NCBI GenBank assembly: GCA_016784965.1 | Contig: JADHTQ010000025.1 | Coordinates: 1 to 54,597, forward strand | Reading direction: 5' to 3' | Length of the DNA: 54,597 nt | Origin: Bacteriovoracaceae bacterium | GTDB lineage: Bacteria > Bdellovibrionota > Bacteriovoracia > Bacteriovoracales > Bacteriovoracaceae | Shown: in pieces, positions 7,677 to 12,755 of the stretch | How positions within the stretch are numbered: position 1 is the first letter of the stretch | Layout of the letters: each line of letters opens with the position of its first letter | Made by a program: the position numbers and the translations under genes | The notes under the pieces: model-generated | Told to the model about the DNA's origin: nothing | The model's database searches: none | Seen by the model: the letters and a program-made list of their open reading frames with translations, nothing else

Positions 7677-9236
7677 CTACTCCACCTTCATCCAAAGAGT
7701 TTCATGTGGTTTCAGTTTAATAGTGATATAGCTGCCATCTTCTGCTTTGTTGAAGTCAATATACTCATTTTGCTCAATTTCAAAAAGCTTAAAATTATCC
7801 TTGTAGGTTAGCTCATGAGTGCTGACATTAACTTCAGTTTTTCCATCATTGCCATTTTTTAAAACGGCAACTTCACCTTGAATATGGCCATACTCATTTC
7901 TAGTTCTTCTGACAAAGGAGCCAATGTTTTGTCTCATGGTGGATAAAGGCTCTTCTCTGGTTCCACAGCAGAGGACAATAGATTTGCTTTTGGCCTGAGA
8001 TAGCATCGTTAGGTATTTATAAATATCTTGAGCTAGACCCTTGGGCCAGCTATTGAGGTTAATGGTGCCATAATGAGCAAACAAAAACTTATAAAATGAT
8101 TTGATGCGCTCAGGGGATTTTTCCATCAAGTTTGTGACACTTGCTGTGGCACAATTGCCATTTTCGTATATTGTACCTTTTGCCTGGGTGATATGTGCTC
8201 TAAAATCCTCGCGGATAAACTCCACATGTCCATAGTCTGGGTAATAGGCCCCCAGTAGACTCAAAAAGATTTCATCGCGATAGTTTGTATTGTATATCAC
8301 ATCAACTGACCCCTTGGGTGTATATAAAAAAGCATTTTCTTTATAATGGTGGGTTAATGAGATAAAATTTCCAGATACGCAGGCGTAGAGAATTTCTATT
8401 GATTTGTTATAGTTAATCAGAGCATTAGAAATCAAAGGTGCTTTGCTGCCGTTTACAATACCCTCGCGACCTAAAAAGCGCACAGCATTTTGAGAGGCAT
8501 CTACTACCTCAGGCAAAAAGAGCAGGTCTTGGCGAAGCATCTTTAAAAAGCGATTTAAGTATTCCATTAAAGCAAAAGTTTCTTCGCGATGCTCGCCATA
8601 ATTATCATGTAACTGAATCCAGCGGTGGAGGGCGTTGGCCTTTATACCTTTTACCCCTCTAGTAGTCCAGAAGGCCAAAACTTTTAACAAATCTGAGACT
8701 ATATCTGGTTGCTGCAAGCTCTTATTGGTGGGGGTGAAGTCGATGAGAACCTGAATCTTTGCTTGGTTTGCCCTGTCCATAAAGGTTTCAAATGCACTCA
8801 CTCCTCCCATGACTTCCATGGACTGCAGACAATTTTCAATATCATAACCTTGGTTATTTGCTTGAGTGCAGCTGTAAAATGGCCGTACATAAAGAACATT
8901 TATACCTAAATCTTGGTAGTAGGGAAGTGATTCTGCTAGTTCCATAAAGTTAGTAAAACTGCTTTGGTTAGCTGATGGTTTTTTATCGGCATATACCGAA
9001 GCCCAAGTACCATTTGCCCAGCCCTGAGGGATAATATAACCATAAGTTTTTTTAAAGGATCTTTGGTATACGTTTAGAGCTTTTTTATGGATATCAAGCT
9101 GTCTAAAAAAGTCTAAAAATATGTCTTGTTGAAAATGGCCATTGATTTTGTGTGATAAGTAGGCAATGGCATCAACATCTTCCCCTTTATATTTTTTGAT
9201 GATATGTCTTAAAAAGACATCTCTGCCTGTATTCAC
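7677..9236 (-). CDS. GH13 (amylosucrase/sucrose-phosphorylase-like) protein with degenerate active site
   Basis: The protein has 519 aa and a GTG start behind GGAGG. A TATAAT box lies at 9275-9280 (minus strand) without a good -35. The TIM-barrel pattern resembles amylosucrase-type GH13: LPYYQDLGINVLYVRPFY (104-121) and QVLIDFTPTNKS (162-173) correspond to the first barrel strands, GVKGIKANALHRW (194-206) to region II and LLFLPEVVDA (238-247) to region III. The nucleophile Asp of region II is Asn201, the usual Arg two residues before it is Lys, and the region I His is Lys172, while the general acid Glu243 is kept. No signal peptide is seen, so it is probably cytoplasmic. It may be a sugar-binding pseudoenzyme or an enzyme with altered chemistry. 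Confidence 0.75.
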   Translation of the reverse strand: MNTGRDVFLRHIIKKYKGEDVDAIAYLSHKINGHFQQDIFLDFFRQLDIHKKALNVYQRSFKKTYGYIIPQGWANGTWASVYADKKPSANQSSFTNFMELAESLPYYQDLGINVLYVRPFYSCTQANNQGYDIENCLQSMEVMGGVSAFETFMDRANQAKIQVLIDFTPTNKSLQQPDIVSDLLKVLAFWTTRGVKGIKANALHRWIQLHDNYGEHREETFALMEYLNRFLKMLRQDLLFLPEVVDASQNAVRFLGREGIVNGSKAPLISNALINYNKSIEILYACVSGNFISLTHHYKENAFLYTPKGSVDVIYNTNYRDEIFLSLLGAYYPDYGHVEFIREDFRAHITQAKGTIYENGNCATASVTNLMEKSPERIKSFYKFLFAHYGTINLNSWPKGLAQDIYKYLTMLSQAKSKSIVLCCGTREEPLSTMRQNIGSFVRRTRNEYGHIQGEVAVLKNGNDGKTEVNVSTHELTYKDNFKLFEIEQNEYIDFNKAEDGSYITIKLKPHETLWMKVE

Positions 9237-9343
9237 TGTTGCCTCCGCGACAAATAAATTTTGGTGTGGTTAACATTATAGAACTTTTTTTTTAAATGGG
9301 GAGAAATATTTAAAGTTTTTTTAATATAGACCGAAATTTCCCA

Positions 9344-9371
9344 TTGACAATAACTTAAAGTCAGTTATATT
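9344..9371 (+). promoter_or_regulatory. Sigma70-type promoter of the ABC/DUF1854 operon
   Basis: TTGACA (9344-9349) and TATATT (9366-9371) have a 16-bp spacer. Transcription would begin near 9378, inside the palindrome at 9375-9397, and about 48 nt before the first small ORF. The region 9237-9343 carries only the GH13 gene's leader and a -10-like box on the other strand. Confidence 0.75.
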
Positions 9372-9425: not shown

Positions 9426-9524
9426 ATGAACACATTAATCATTAATCAAATGATGAGTGGCGTACAAAATCTGATGGCCTCGTCTAAAAGTTTCTCTCTG
9501 TTATTTAGAGGGAGACTCTCTTAA
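9426..9524 (+). CDS. Small 32-codon ORF with near-ideal ribosome site, candidate leader or exported peptide
   Basis: The ATG is preceded by AAAAGGAGGT with a 5-base gap, the strongest Shine-Dalgarno site I see in the window. The 32-aa product has an aliphatic/Met N-terminus, then ASSKSFSLLFRGRLS; it has no acidic residue and a net positive charge. The segment SSKxFxxxFR (residues 19-28) recurs in the next ORF (residues 28-37), and QNL occurs in both about 15 residues from the start. The 3' part of the ORF forms an RNA hairpin (9490-9516). It could be substrate or precursor for the ABC exporter downstream, a regulatory leader peptide, or a toxin-like peptide. I do not recognise a family. Translation is predicted, not shown. 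Confidence 0.6.
   Translation: MNTLIINQMMSGVQNLMASSKSFSLLFRGRLS
9490..9516 (+). promoter_or_regulatory. Hairpin inside the 32-codon ORF
   Basis: GTTTCTCTCT (9490-9499) pairs over ten positions (two G-U) with AGAGGGAGAC (9507-9516) around a 7-nt loop. It overlaps the last third of the small ORF. That placement would suit attenuation or protection of an upstream mRNA end. No T-tract follows, so it is not an ordinary terminator. Confidence 0.45.
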
Positions 9525-9668: not shown

Positions 9669-9926
9669 ATGCTTTATCAAATTGAAAAAAATGTTTTTGA
9701 AAAAGAACTACAAAACCTAGCAAAGGGCAGCTTAGAGGTAATAAGAAGCAGCAGCAAACTGTTTGTTCATTCCTTTAGAGTTGCAAGTCTTGCATCTTCA
9801 TTTGTTCTGGGATGGTTTTTATCCCCAGTCCAGTTAGAACGGGCAGTAGCACCGGACAAATTTGAGATACTTGACAACAAAAAAGTTAACGATTTTGGTG
9901 CTTCACTGTCACCACCCGTTTTTTAG
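9669..9926 (+). CDS. Small 85-aa membrane-associated or exported peptide upstream of the ABC exporter
   Basis: The ATG lies behind AAGGAG at ideal spacing. The N-terminal 26 residues are a charged amphipathic helix (EKNVFEKELQNLAKG). A hydrophobic stretch follows (about 31-57, with VASLASSFVLGWFLS), then a polar tail ending SLSPPVF. It shares SSKxFxxxFR and QNL with the 32-aa ORF upstream, using different codons at most of these positions. There is no lipobox, Cys or double-Gly cleavage site. The gene is 61 bp ahead of the exporter start and must be in the same transcript unless there is an internal promoter. I infer a cargo, accessory or regulator of the exporter and do not know a family. 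The 145 bases between the two small ORFs are AT-rich without a clear signal. Confidence 0.75.
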   Translation: MLYQIEKNVFEKELQNLAKGSLEVIRSSSKLFVHSFRVASLASSFVLGWFLSPVQLERAVAPDKFEILDNKKVNDFGASLSPPVF

Positions 9927-9931
9927 GGATA

Positions 9932-9963
9932 GGTCCACAAGCGATTTAATTTACTTGTGGGCC
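9932..9963 (+). promoter_or_regulatory. Strong hairpin between the 85-aa ORF and the ABC exporter
   Basis: GGTCCACAAG (9932-9941) pairs with CTTGTGGGCC (9954-9963) over ten positions, one of them a G-U pair, with a 12-nt loop. It begins 6 nt after the stop of the 85-aa ORF and ends about 12 nt before the GGAG ribosome site of the exporter. No T-tract follows. A role in setting different levels of small peptides and exporter by mRNA processing or stability is plausible. Confidence 0.55.
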
Positions 9964-9986
9964 TTATCAAACGTTGGAGTTATAAA

Positions 9987-12266
9987 ATGAATACAATAAT
10001 TAAAAAAGAATATATTGAGAAGTTTTTACAGCAAGATTCATCTTTACCAAAAGAGGTAAGATCACTTATTGAACATACTGAAGAGATTATTCTCTATGGA
10101 TTATGTGATTTAAGTCACGATTATAAATTAGAGCATAGCTGGATAATCTTAACTCACAAATCTATTTTTGTGGCATCAATTGATCATAATGATAACTATA
10201 AAATAGATTTGCAAGTTGCAATTAACCGCATTCAAAAAGTTAAAGAAGTAACATCTCTTAGCGCAACTACTTATTTGTTTTTGACAAGTGATGATATGTC
10301 ACCACTTATGTCAGTGAGATTTACAAATAGGCAAAAAATTATCATGGGCCATATTAAATACCTCGTTGAGCAAATGATCGGCGAAGGGGATGTCGATCCA
10401 ACATTTGATGCCGATGTGGAGTATGGCAATGCCATTTTAAGGCCGCTTCTTGAAGCAAGAAACAATACCTCGGATAAAAAAAATGTGGTACTACTTAGGC
10501 TTCTTGCCTACTTGTTGCCCTATAAAAAGCAAGTCATAATTGGCACAGCAGGAGCCGTGATGACAACCATTATCAGTTTGGTGCCCGCCTATTTGTCGGG
10601 TTATCTCATTGACTCAGTCATTAGACCTTTTCAAGATGGTAAGCTTACAGTAGATGCCGCCAGCCATATTGCTTGGATTATAGTGGCGTCTATTGGTGCA
10701 ATTTTGATCTTAAGGGAATTATTTTCTTGGCTTAGATTAAATAAAATGTCCATTATGGGCGAGCTAGTGGCAAGAGACATTAGGGAGGAGCTTTATAGTC
10801 ACCTTCAAACCTTAAGCTTGGACTTTTTTTCCAATAAGCAAACCGGCAGTATTATTTCGCGGGTGAGTTCTGATACTGATCGAATTTGGGATTTTATTGC
10901 CTTTGGAGTTGTTGAAGTTGGTATTGCCCTTATTACCTTGGCAGGCCTTGGGAGTGTTTTGATTTACTTGGACCCATTGCTTGGACTACTTATGGTTTTG
11001 CCAGTGCCCATACTTCTTATTTCCATCTTTATTCACGGTGAGAAGATGAAAAAGATGTTTTTGAAGGCATGGAGAAAATGGTCAGATTTAACAAATGTTT
11101 TATCTGATACTATCCCAGGGATTTCTGTGGTTAAGGCATTTAATCAGGAGGACCGTGAGATTGGTAAATTTAACAACAGAAATAAACTAGTTACTTCTGA
11201 GTTTAATGACATTCACCGCTCTTGGACAAGTTTTTGGCCTTTGTTGATGTTGGGTGTGCATGCAGTTACTTTGGCGGTATGGTCTTTTGCAACACCGAGG
11301 CTTGTGAGTAGTACAAGTGAGGAAGCTTACTTAAGTGCGGGAACATTTGTTTCATTTTTACTATATATGACTATGTTTTCAACACCGATTGAAATTATTG
11401 GTCAAATGGCAAGAATGTTAAATAGAGCACTTAGTTCTGCCTATCGGATTTTTGAAATTTTGGATACAAAACCCACAATTTCAGTGATTAATAATCCGGT
11501 TAAGCTTAATGCACTTTCTGGTGAAGTAGAGTTTAGCAATGTTTCATTTAGCTATGATGGAGTTAGAAAAGTTATCCATAATATGAACTTTGTGGTTGGG
11601 CCAGGTGAGATGATTGGTCTTGTAGGAACATCTGGAGGAGGCAAGTCAACTTTAACTAAGCTGATTGCACGATTTTATGATGTAAATGAAGGATCAATTT
11701 TTATTGATGGAGTTAACATTAAGGACTTGGAGCTTGGAATGTATCGCAGGCAAGTTGGTATGGTACTGCAGGAGCCTTATTTATTCCATGGCAATATTAA
11801 AGATAATATTGGCTATGGGTTAGACAATGTGAGTTTAGATCAAATCATCGAAGCAGCAAAAATTGCAAATGCTCATGATTTTATTTTAAAACTGGCCCAC
11901 GGTTACGACACGATTGTAGGAGAGCGTGGACATACTTTGTCAGGAGGTGAAAGGCAGAGAGTATCAATTGCTAGGGCAATTTTACACGGTCCAAAAATTT
12001 TAATTTTGGATGAAGCAACTAGTGCTGTTGATACTGAAACAGAACATAAGATTCAAGAGGCCTTAGATAAGTTGATTAAGGGGCGCACCGTTTTTGCTGT
12101 TGCCCATCGCTTATCGACTTTAAGAAAGGCCAATAGAATTTTTGTGATAGATAATGGCAAAATTTGTGAACAAGGTACTCATAGTGAATTGTTGGCCAAA
12201 GTTGATGGGCAATACTCTAAGCTGTACACAATGCAGCAGCAAATGAGTGGCAATTTTGCCGTATAA
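9987..12266 (+). CDS. ABC exporter (TMD-NBD fusion) with extra N-terminal domain, DUF1854-associated type
   Basis: The protein has 759 aa counted from the ATG at 9987, which has GGAG seven bases upstream; an upstream in-frame GTG falls inside the hairpin. Residues 1-185 form an extra soluble domain with alternating strands (WIILTHKSIFVASID, YLFLTSDD), possibly PH-like. A six-helix exporter membrane domain covers about 190-480. The nucleotide-binding domain has Walker A GTSGGGKST (about 546), Q-loop VLQEPYLF, signature LSGGERQRVS (about 650), Walker B ILILDEATSAVD (about 672) and the H-loop VAHRLST (about 705). NCBI naming links exporters of this build with DUF1854 proteins and cyanophycin genes in proteobacteria. 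No cyanophycin synthetase is present here. It would export a substrate across the inner membrane as a homodimer; the substrate is unknown. Confidence 0.9.
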   Translation: MNTIIKKEYIEKFLQQDSSLPKEVRSLIEHTEEIILYGLCDLSHDYKLEHSWIILTHKSIFVASIDHNDNYKIDLQVAINRIQKVKEVTSLSATTYLFLTSDDMSPLMSVRFTNRQKIIMGHIKYLVEQMIGEGDVDPTFDADVEYGNAILRPLLEARNNTSDKKNVVLLRLLAYLLPYKKQVIIGTAGAVMTTIISLVPAYLSGYLIDSVIRPFQDGKLTVDAASHIAWIIVASIGAILILRELFSWLRLNKMSIMGELVARDIREELYSHLQTLSLDFFSNKQTGSIISRVSSDTDRIWDFIAFGVVEVGIALITLAGLGSVLIYLDPLLGLLMVLPVPILLISIFIHGEKMKKMFLKAWRKWSDLTNVLSDTIPGISVVKAFNQEDREIGKFNNRNKLVTSEFNDIHRSWTSFWPLLMLGVHAVTLAVWSFATPRLVSSTSEEAYLSAGTFVSFLLYMTMFSTPIEIIGQMARMLNRALSSAYRIFEILDTKPTISVINNPVKLNALSGEVEFSNVSFSYDGVRKVIHNMNFVVGPGEMIGLVGTSGGGKSTLTKLIARFYDVNEGSIFIDGVNIKDLELGMYRRQVGMVLQEPYLFHGNIKDNIGYGLDNVSLDQIIEAAKIANAHDFILKLAHGYDTIVGERGHTLSGGERQRVSIARAILHGPKILILDEATSAVDTETEHKIQEALDKLIKGRTVFAVAHRLSTLRKANRIFVIDNGKICEQGTHSELLAKVDGQYSKLYTMQQQMSGNFAV

Positions 12267-12281
12267 ATTGGAGGTTTAGTT

Positions 12282-12755
12282 ATGAAAAAAAATATTAAGC
12301 TCTTTATGGGCAAAAGTGGACAGTTACTGTTTAGTGATGCCCAAAGCAAAGTAGACTCAGTCGAAGTGTCGGCCAAGCAATGCTTTCCTTGGTCAGATCC
12401 CGACAAGTATATTTCACTCCAAAATCAATCAGGTGATGAAGTATACTTAATTAAGGATATGGCAAAGATGGAAGTGGCCACCCAGTATACACTACAAAAG
12501 CATCTAAAACAGGTGCAGTTTGTAATGGATGTAAATAAGCTTGTGGCAATTGAAGAGGATATCGAATTGCGCAAATATGACGTCGTGACCAAGCAGGGAC
12601 CAAGGGTCTTTCAAACACTGCTCGAGGATTGGCCCAAGGTAAGTCATGATGGACAAATTGTGCTCAAGGATATTGCCGGTGATATTTTTGTTATTGAATC
12701 GGTTGAATCTTTGGATAAAAAAAGTCAAAAGCTAATCAGTACCTACATTGACTAA
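12282..12755 (+). CDS. DUF1854-family protein, partner of the ABC exporter
   Basis: This 157-aa soluble protein has a start behind GGAGG and begins 15 bp after the exporter stop. Landmarks I associate with DUF1854 are QCFPWSDPDKYISLQNQSG near residue 36, then EVYLIKDMAKM, ALxxHL-like TLQKHLKQVQF, and a beta-rich second half ending in DGQIVLKDIAGDIFVIES (about 126-143). The family consistently travels with the large ABC exporter type found upstream and is described in databases as cyanophycin-associated, but its biochemical role is not known to me. It probably binds the exporter on the cytoplasmic side. The gene closes the operon, followed by an intrinsic terminator. Confidence 0.8.
   Translation: MKKNIKLFMGKSGQLLFSDAQSKVDSVEVSAKQCFPWSDPDKYISLQNQSGDEVYLIKDMAKMEVATQYTLQKHLKQVQFVMDVNKLVAIEEDIELRKYDVVTKQGPRVFQTLLEDWPKVSHDGQIVLKDIAGDIFVIESVESLDKKSQKLISTYID

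Follow-up and report, generated by a model that had tools for sequence, protein, structure and literature searches.

Trehalose synthases (TreS) belong to subfamily GH13_16 of the alpha-amylase family, and amylosucrases and sucrose hydrolases to GH13_4; the loop-8 insertion of amylosucrases is a domain with a name of its own. In animals, 4F2hc is described in a passage of PMC8537225 as a GH13 fold that lacks domain B and from which the conserved catalytic site is absent. In plants, ISA2 is presented, in the part of PMC12510319 that deals with it, as a non-catalytic paralog in storage-glucan metabolism with at least four of its five catalytic residues varying, the nucleophile included, and the isoamylase type is assigned to GH13_11 in the abstract of PMC12516185.

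Here we describe a GH13-fold protein encoded in a 54,597-nucleotide stretch of Bacteriovoracaceae DNA (hereafter the window; its product, the window protein). By sequence, its domain composition is that of 4F2hc, a likeness for which we claim no common origin: as in the ectodomain of human 4F2hc (SLC3A2), domains A and C are present, domain B is missing and the catalytic site is lost. By contrast, 4F2hc is an extracellular, membrane-anchored partner of amino-acid transporters, and the window protein carries no export signal. Like ISA2, a non-catalytic GH13 protein, the window protein has its nucleophile and other catalytic residues changed; ISA2 differs in being of the isoamylase type, in another GH13 subfamily, in being retained across Chloroplastida and in having ISA1 as its partner, whereas the window protein is a single sequence whose locus points to no partner. 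From TreS and amylosucrases it differs in having neither the nucleophile nor domain B. As analogies, the ISA2 and 4F2hc precedents do not show the same role for the window protein. Among the papers listed in literature searches, titles and abstract openings name no domain-B-less non-catalytic GH13 protein of bacteria, which may still be in print, and those on Bacteriovoracaceae together with trehalose synthase, or on DUF1854 together with cyanophycin, name no such protein.

The GH13-fold gene and its homologs

The open reading frame called by the sequence-only reading was confirmed at its position; it lies on the minus strand and starts with GTG (Table 1). Its 519-codon frame contains no stop or frameshift, and upstream of the GTG no ATG, GTG or TTG is available in this frame. 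The sigma-70-like match ahead of the gene is one of nine in the whole stretch, a number not in excess of the mean of 8.0 in shuffled sequence. Codon usage of the gene is ordinary for its genome, the score being 0.083 in the true frame, 0.036–0.117 in 13 window genes taken as reference, and at most 0.013 in the other five frames of the gene. The Pfam model PF00128 matched at 42.1 bits, above its curated cut-off of 22, which identifies the product as a homolog of the GH13 (alpha-amylase) family; the match is confined to residues 81–168 because the remainder of the protein has drifted.

Table 1. Positions in the window of the GH13-fold gene, its parts and its neighbors.
Feature	Position	Strand	Basis
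Class III (Firmicute-type) FBPase, PF06874 283 bits	5575-7674	+	Pfam
Coding sequence (GTG start, 519 aa) of the putatively non-catalytic GH13-fold protein	7677..9236	-	ORF, PF00128, G037 homology, codon usage
C-terminal beta-rich domain C, residues 425-519	7677..7964	-	Model, aligns to G037 C-terminus
Residues 392-405, site where most of the loop after beta-8 is gone	8022..8063	-	Alignment, G037 model
Region IV, residues 318-322, NYRDE: His→Arg320, Asp321 kept	8271..8285	-	Alignment
Region III, residues 241-246, LPEVVD: acid/base Glu243 kept	8499..8516	-	Alignment
Region II, residues 194-204, GVKGIKANALH: Arg→Lys199, nucleophile Asp→Asn201	8625..8657	-	Alignment
Junction of residues 176/177, site of the 85-aa domain B loss	8706..8711	-	Alignment
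Region I, residues 163-173, VLIDFTPTNKS: Asp166 kept, His→Asn171	8718..8750	-	Alignment to G037
N-terminal part, three helices predicted at residues 4-54, pLDDT 25-39	9075..9227	-	Model
Shine-Dalgarno-like GGAGG, 5 nt ahead of the GTG start	9242..9246	-	Sequence
Sigma-70-like promoter match TTGTCA-16-TATATT, 10/12, upstream of the gene	9323..9350	-	Consensus match only
ABC transporter gene, then DUF1854 protein gene, divergent from the GH13-fold gene	9957-12755	+	NCBIfam, Pfam

The closest relative is a 720-residue protein encoded on SKIL01000020.1 of the Bacteriovoracaceae MAG CSBr16_61 (G037), from a family that NCBI assigns to the Bdellovibrionota. The two proteins are 38% identical (188 of 497 aligned residues) and 42% identical across residues 166–398 of the window protein, a stretch whose E-value of 3.2e-50 puts the homology beyond chance. 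They share the N-terminal part and the C-terminal domain; unlike the window protein, the G037 homolog begins with a hydrophobic stretch like a signal peptide, has both domain B and the beta-8 loop, and carries the full set of catalytic residues (D332, E374, D452, R330, H217 and H451), and its GH13 motifs are complete (DFIPGH, GVSGIRADA, PEVVD and NHHDE). Its best sequence match in the PDB is a trehalose synthase TreS (2.6e-38). The amylosucrase lead given by the sequence-only reading proved useful, in that the G037 model (mean pLDDT 56, pTM 0.56) resembles amylosucrases and sucrose hydrolases, and does so over their N-terminal part too (9isa: Z 22.4, 488 residues aligned, rmsd 3.9; several further GH13 enzymes reach an equal Z). 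The signal-like N-terminus, the TreS match in sequence and the amylosucrase match of the model suggest that the two proteins probably descend from a secreted GH13 enzyme that was built like an amylosucrase and resembled TreS in sequence. Both proteins fall below the cut-off of 678.35 bits of TIGR02456, the NCBIfam model for TreS (window protein, 58.3 bits; G037, 178 bits), and of the amylosucrase-like architecture the window protein has the N-terminal part and lacks domain B and most of the beta-8 loop. Adjoining the G037 homolog is an open reading frame (L002:2-463, minus strand) that runs off the contig end and has GIDVGGTKTE near its start, which we take to resemble the motif of ROK-type sugar kinases.

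A distant homolog in another genome (G113; L044:303-2729, minus strand) keeps most catalytic residues and contains one in-frame TAG, a sign either that the gene is decaying or that the assembly is wrong at this site. Used as a query, the G113 piece found only itself and G037 among 125 genomes, the genome of the window being unmatched at E 1e-6; its tie to the window protein thus runs via G037. Its branch is longer and deeper than that of the window protein (1.64 vs 1.01).

The AlphaFold2 model of the window protein, built from a six-sequence alignment, has a mean pLDDT of 49 and a pTM of 0.44, and its fold comparisons serve only as support for GH13 ancestry. In Foldseek the top matches were trehalose synthases (E 1e-11), and the 50 matches listed also include structures of 4F2hc, a protein without domain B; in VIA-align the low-confidence model matched GH13 structures best (Z up to 14.7, rmsd 7.0).

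To find further copies, genomes of relatives were searched with the window protein. Its own genome gave one match, to which a PF00128 search added two other GH13 genes. At E 0.001, four of 97 genomes of relatives, its own included, were matched (weakly and by general GH13 similarity in G036 and G064), as were five of 129 family genomes (likewise weak in G036, G130 and G157). At E 1e-8, only its own genome and G037 were matched among 368 genomes of the phylum, a set that overlaps the 129 family genomes. GTDB contigs were searched twice, with nothing found the first time and the G037 record alone the second time; IMG/VR held no match, and plasmids gave six records of weak, general GH13 similarity. 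With the G037 homolog as the query, eight of 129 family genomes were matched at E 1e-12 and two of 129 order genomes at E 1e-30; of the 630 plasmid records found with it, all below 60% identity, the 60 listed were of general GH13 type. A second sequence with the same changes was absent from the 129 family and 368 phylum genomes, and with the changes seen in a single protein, the altered site cannot be shown to be conserved.

Residues and segments lost relative to G037

Alignment to G037 bore out the sequence-only reading of region II, with Asn201 in place of the nucleophile and Lys in place of Arg, and of region III, with Glu243 retained. At beta-4, where catalytic GH13 enzymes have their nucleophile, Asp occupies this position in all 12 of the further sequences whose alignment covers region II. 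The acid/base Glu of beta-5 is present as Glu243 and the transition-state Asp of beta-7 as Asp321, though preceded by Arg320 instead of His. The same reading had assigned the region I His to Lys172, which is off by one position: with DFIPGHIS of G037 set against DFTPTNKS of the window protein, the His aligns with Asn171 and Lys172 is the next residue. A further change replaces Tyr182 of G037 by Cys136. Of the 11 active-site residues, five are retained (Tyr131, Asp132, Asp166, Glu243 and Asp321), compared with nine in the G113 homolog despite the longer and deeper branch of the latter.

The possibility of a better alignment, with another Asp as the nucleophile, was ruled out because the region II alignment to G037 is gapless, within a stretch that is approximately 40% identical, and no Asp lies within nine residues of Asn201. 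Asp at the position of Asn201 in orthologs had been named in advance as a sign of a local mutation. It is indeed present in the G037 (Asp332) and G113 homologs, so that the change to Asn is lineage-specific; yet, judged by the alignment, Asn201 is not a single local mutation but one of many losses. The earlier proposal that the nucleophile, and with it GH13 catalysis, has been lost is supported and extends further, to His→Arg320, Tyr→Cys136 and the loops described below.

Three parts of the G037 protein are absent from the window protein: residues 2–53, comprising the signal peptide and what follows it; residues 223–307, the 85 residues of domain B; and residues 515–579, 588–594 and 599–607, approximately 81 residues of the loop after beta-8. 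No signal peptide was found in the window protein, whose maximal hydropathy is 0.72, compared with 3.05 for G037. In the G037 model, with strands and helices numbered as we read its element list, the first large block sits between beta-3 (208–213) and alpha-3 (308–324) and the second between beta-8 (513–517) and alpha-8 (607–621), boundaries that rest on the pairwise alignment and on a model that is itself weak in those loops. Both large losses are, in this model, barrel loops on the catalytic face, and both preserve the reading frame. The barrel had been taken for full length and intact, a statement that is wrong since 85 residues after beta-3 and approximately 81 after beta-8 are missing, together with the signal peptide. 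In the model of the window protein, domain C has block means of pLDDT between 64 and 84, dipping to 43–55 at residues 481–500.

Neighboring genes and genome context

The tail-to-tail placement with the gene for a class III FBPase was confirmed, with 2 bp between the convergent genes. No NCBIfam family was assigned to this FBPase at E 0.01, and its distribution is patchy, with nine of the 125 Bacteriovoracaceae genomes searched, that of the window included, carrying it. Stretches of 7–14 kb around the FBPase gene in the eight other genomes, several of which stop at contig ends, contained no open reading frame of at least 120 residues matching the window protein.

On the other side lie the genes for the ABC transporter and the DUF1854 protein. 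The best NCBIfam model for the transporter is the cyanophycin-associated NF052233 (631.6 bits, below its cut-off of 880), and a cyanophycin synthetase is encoded on another contig of the same genome (G000:C11:3615-6185; 1086.6 bits, above its cut-off). The divergent arrangement of the transporter and DUF1854 genes proves no link to the GH13-fold gene. Between the GH13-fold gene and the transporter gene, two small open reading frames are present on the plus strand, one of 32 residues with a GGAGG ribosome site (9426-9524) and one of 85 residues (9669-9926).

Of the two further GH13 genes of the genome, one encodes a GlgB-like protein and the other a second GH13 protein with CBM48, which we read as pullulanase-like, so that alpha-glucan metabolism is likely present in the host. 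In the GlgB-like open reading frame (L018:487-2919, plus strand), approximately 190 residues precede the CBM48 domain, with YIIVGEGLFARLALDILEKR near the start, which looks like a dinucleotide-binding start.

Interpretation and alternatives

With the nucleophile, its Arg, both His and the roof of the pocket gone, GH13 catalysis by the window protein is very unlikely under the established GH13 mechanism. It seems reasonably likely, and is the reading we favor, that the protein is a cytoplasmic pseudoenzyme of the GH13 fold with a non-catalytic binding, regulatory or scaffold role. The ancestor would have been a secreted enzyme of the G037 kind, of amylosucrase-like architecture and nearest to TreS in sequence. 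Its lineage would then have lost the export signal, the nucleophile, one Arg, two His and one Tyr, as well as domain B and the loop after beta-8, which together would have formed a roof over the sugar pocket; what remains would be the core of the barrel along with the N-terminal part and domain C. Because the nucleophile is missing, the retaining two-step reaction of GH13 enzymes would no longer be possible, and the protein may instead serve in the cytoplasm as a subunit for regulation or scaffolding, by binding a sugar, a glucan or another protein. A role as a sugar sensor, as proposed from the residues alone, is possible.

The main rival, possible but doubtful, is a young pseudogene, in which the gene for a secreted enzyme like that of G037 would be decaying with no stop acquired so far. 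The rate of evolution bears on both readings. Branch lengths in the tree were 1.01 for the window protein and 0.35 for G037; over 30 bootstraps on a fixed tree the medians were 0.95 and 0.40 substitutions per site, and the difference was above zero in 30 of 30. Relative-rate tests between the two gave p < 0.05 with five of seven outgroups, uncorrected. The excess over 326 columns amounts to approximately 174 amino acid changes at the median, approximately 82 at the lower 5% bound and approximately 49 in the smallest bootstrap. At conserved positions, 18 of 49 were kept outside the active site and 5 of 11 inside (p 0.73). Loss specific to the active site, under which structural positions are expected to be better kept, is not borne out by these counts; the similar loss inside and outside looks like general relaxation, and since structural positions are no better kept than active-site ones, the pseudoenzyme reading is weakened.

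This accelerated and apparently unspecific loss speaks for the pseudogene, as do the missing signal peptide and two large segments and the occurrence of the changed protein in one genome only; the in-frame TAG in the G113 homolog adds that this rare gene may be dispensable. Against decay stand the intact frame of 519 codons, with its start codon and ribosome site in place, the ordinary codon usage, and the two large deletions, both in frame and on loops. In simulations, a neutral open reading frame survived to 82 changes in 0.4% of 5000 runs and to 174 in none, though to 40 in 6%, a test that presumes that the excess changes postdate the loss of catalysis. If the excess did follow that loss, the result speaks for a frame kept open during rapid change of the protein, as would be expected under continued selection.

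A more specific form of the pseudoenzyme reading, unlikely as it stands, casts the protein as a counterpart of ISA2 and 4F2hc in the bacterial cytoplasm. A GH13 enzyme that was once secreted and acted on sucrose or maltose would have been brought into the cell, and its pocket, now roofless, would have become less acidic through His→Asn, Arg→Lys, Asp→Asn and His→Arg; it might bind either a glucan or a negatively charged sugar, for example a sugar phosphate, and steer storage metabolism, for which the GlgB-like, second CBM48-bearing GH13 and cyanophycin synthetase genes elsewhere in the genome would provide the setting.

It is distinctly improbable that the window protein is a still-active enzyme, with altered chemistry via Glu243 and Asp321 in place of a canonical nucleophile, or with a different substrate. 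These two residues remain, as do Asp132, Tyr131 and Asp166, but the protein lacks the Asp nucleophile with its partner Arg, the two conserved His and the pocket-forming domain B and beta-8 loop, and the gapless region II alignment offers no substitute Asp. Least likely of all is a sugar sensor with a functional link to the class III FBPase and to gluconeogenesis, as envisaged by the sequence-only reading, for although the FBPase gene is a close convergent neighbor and the genome has two more GH13 genes, one of them GlgB-like, convergent genes do not form one operon, and the patchily distributed FBPase has no homolog of the window protein in the stretches compared around it at the eight other loci.

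The preferred reading, a GH13-fold pseudoenzyme, has consequences for annotation, as the label 'alpha-amylase family protein' would mislead for this gene. Non-catalytic GH13 proteins are already known from animals (4F2hc) and plants (ISA2), and the window protein would be a bacterial case. Paired with a relative from its own family whose catalytic motifs are complete, it would provide a tractable system for the transition from a sugar enzyme to a protein of binding or regulation, since more genomes could resolve the order in which the export signal, the nucleophile, domain B and the beta-8 loop were lost.
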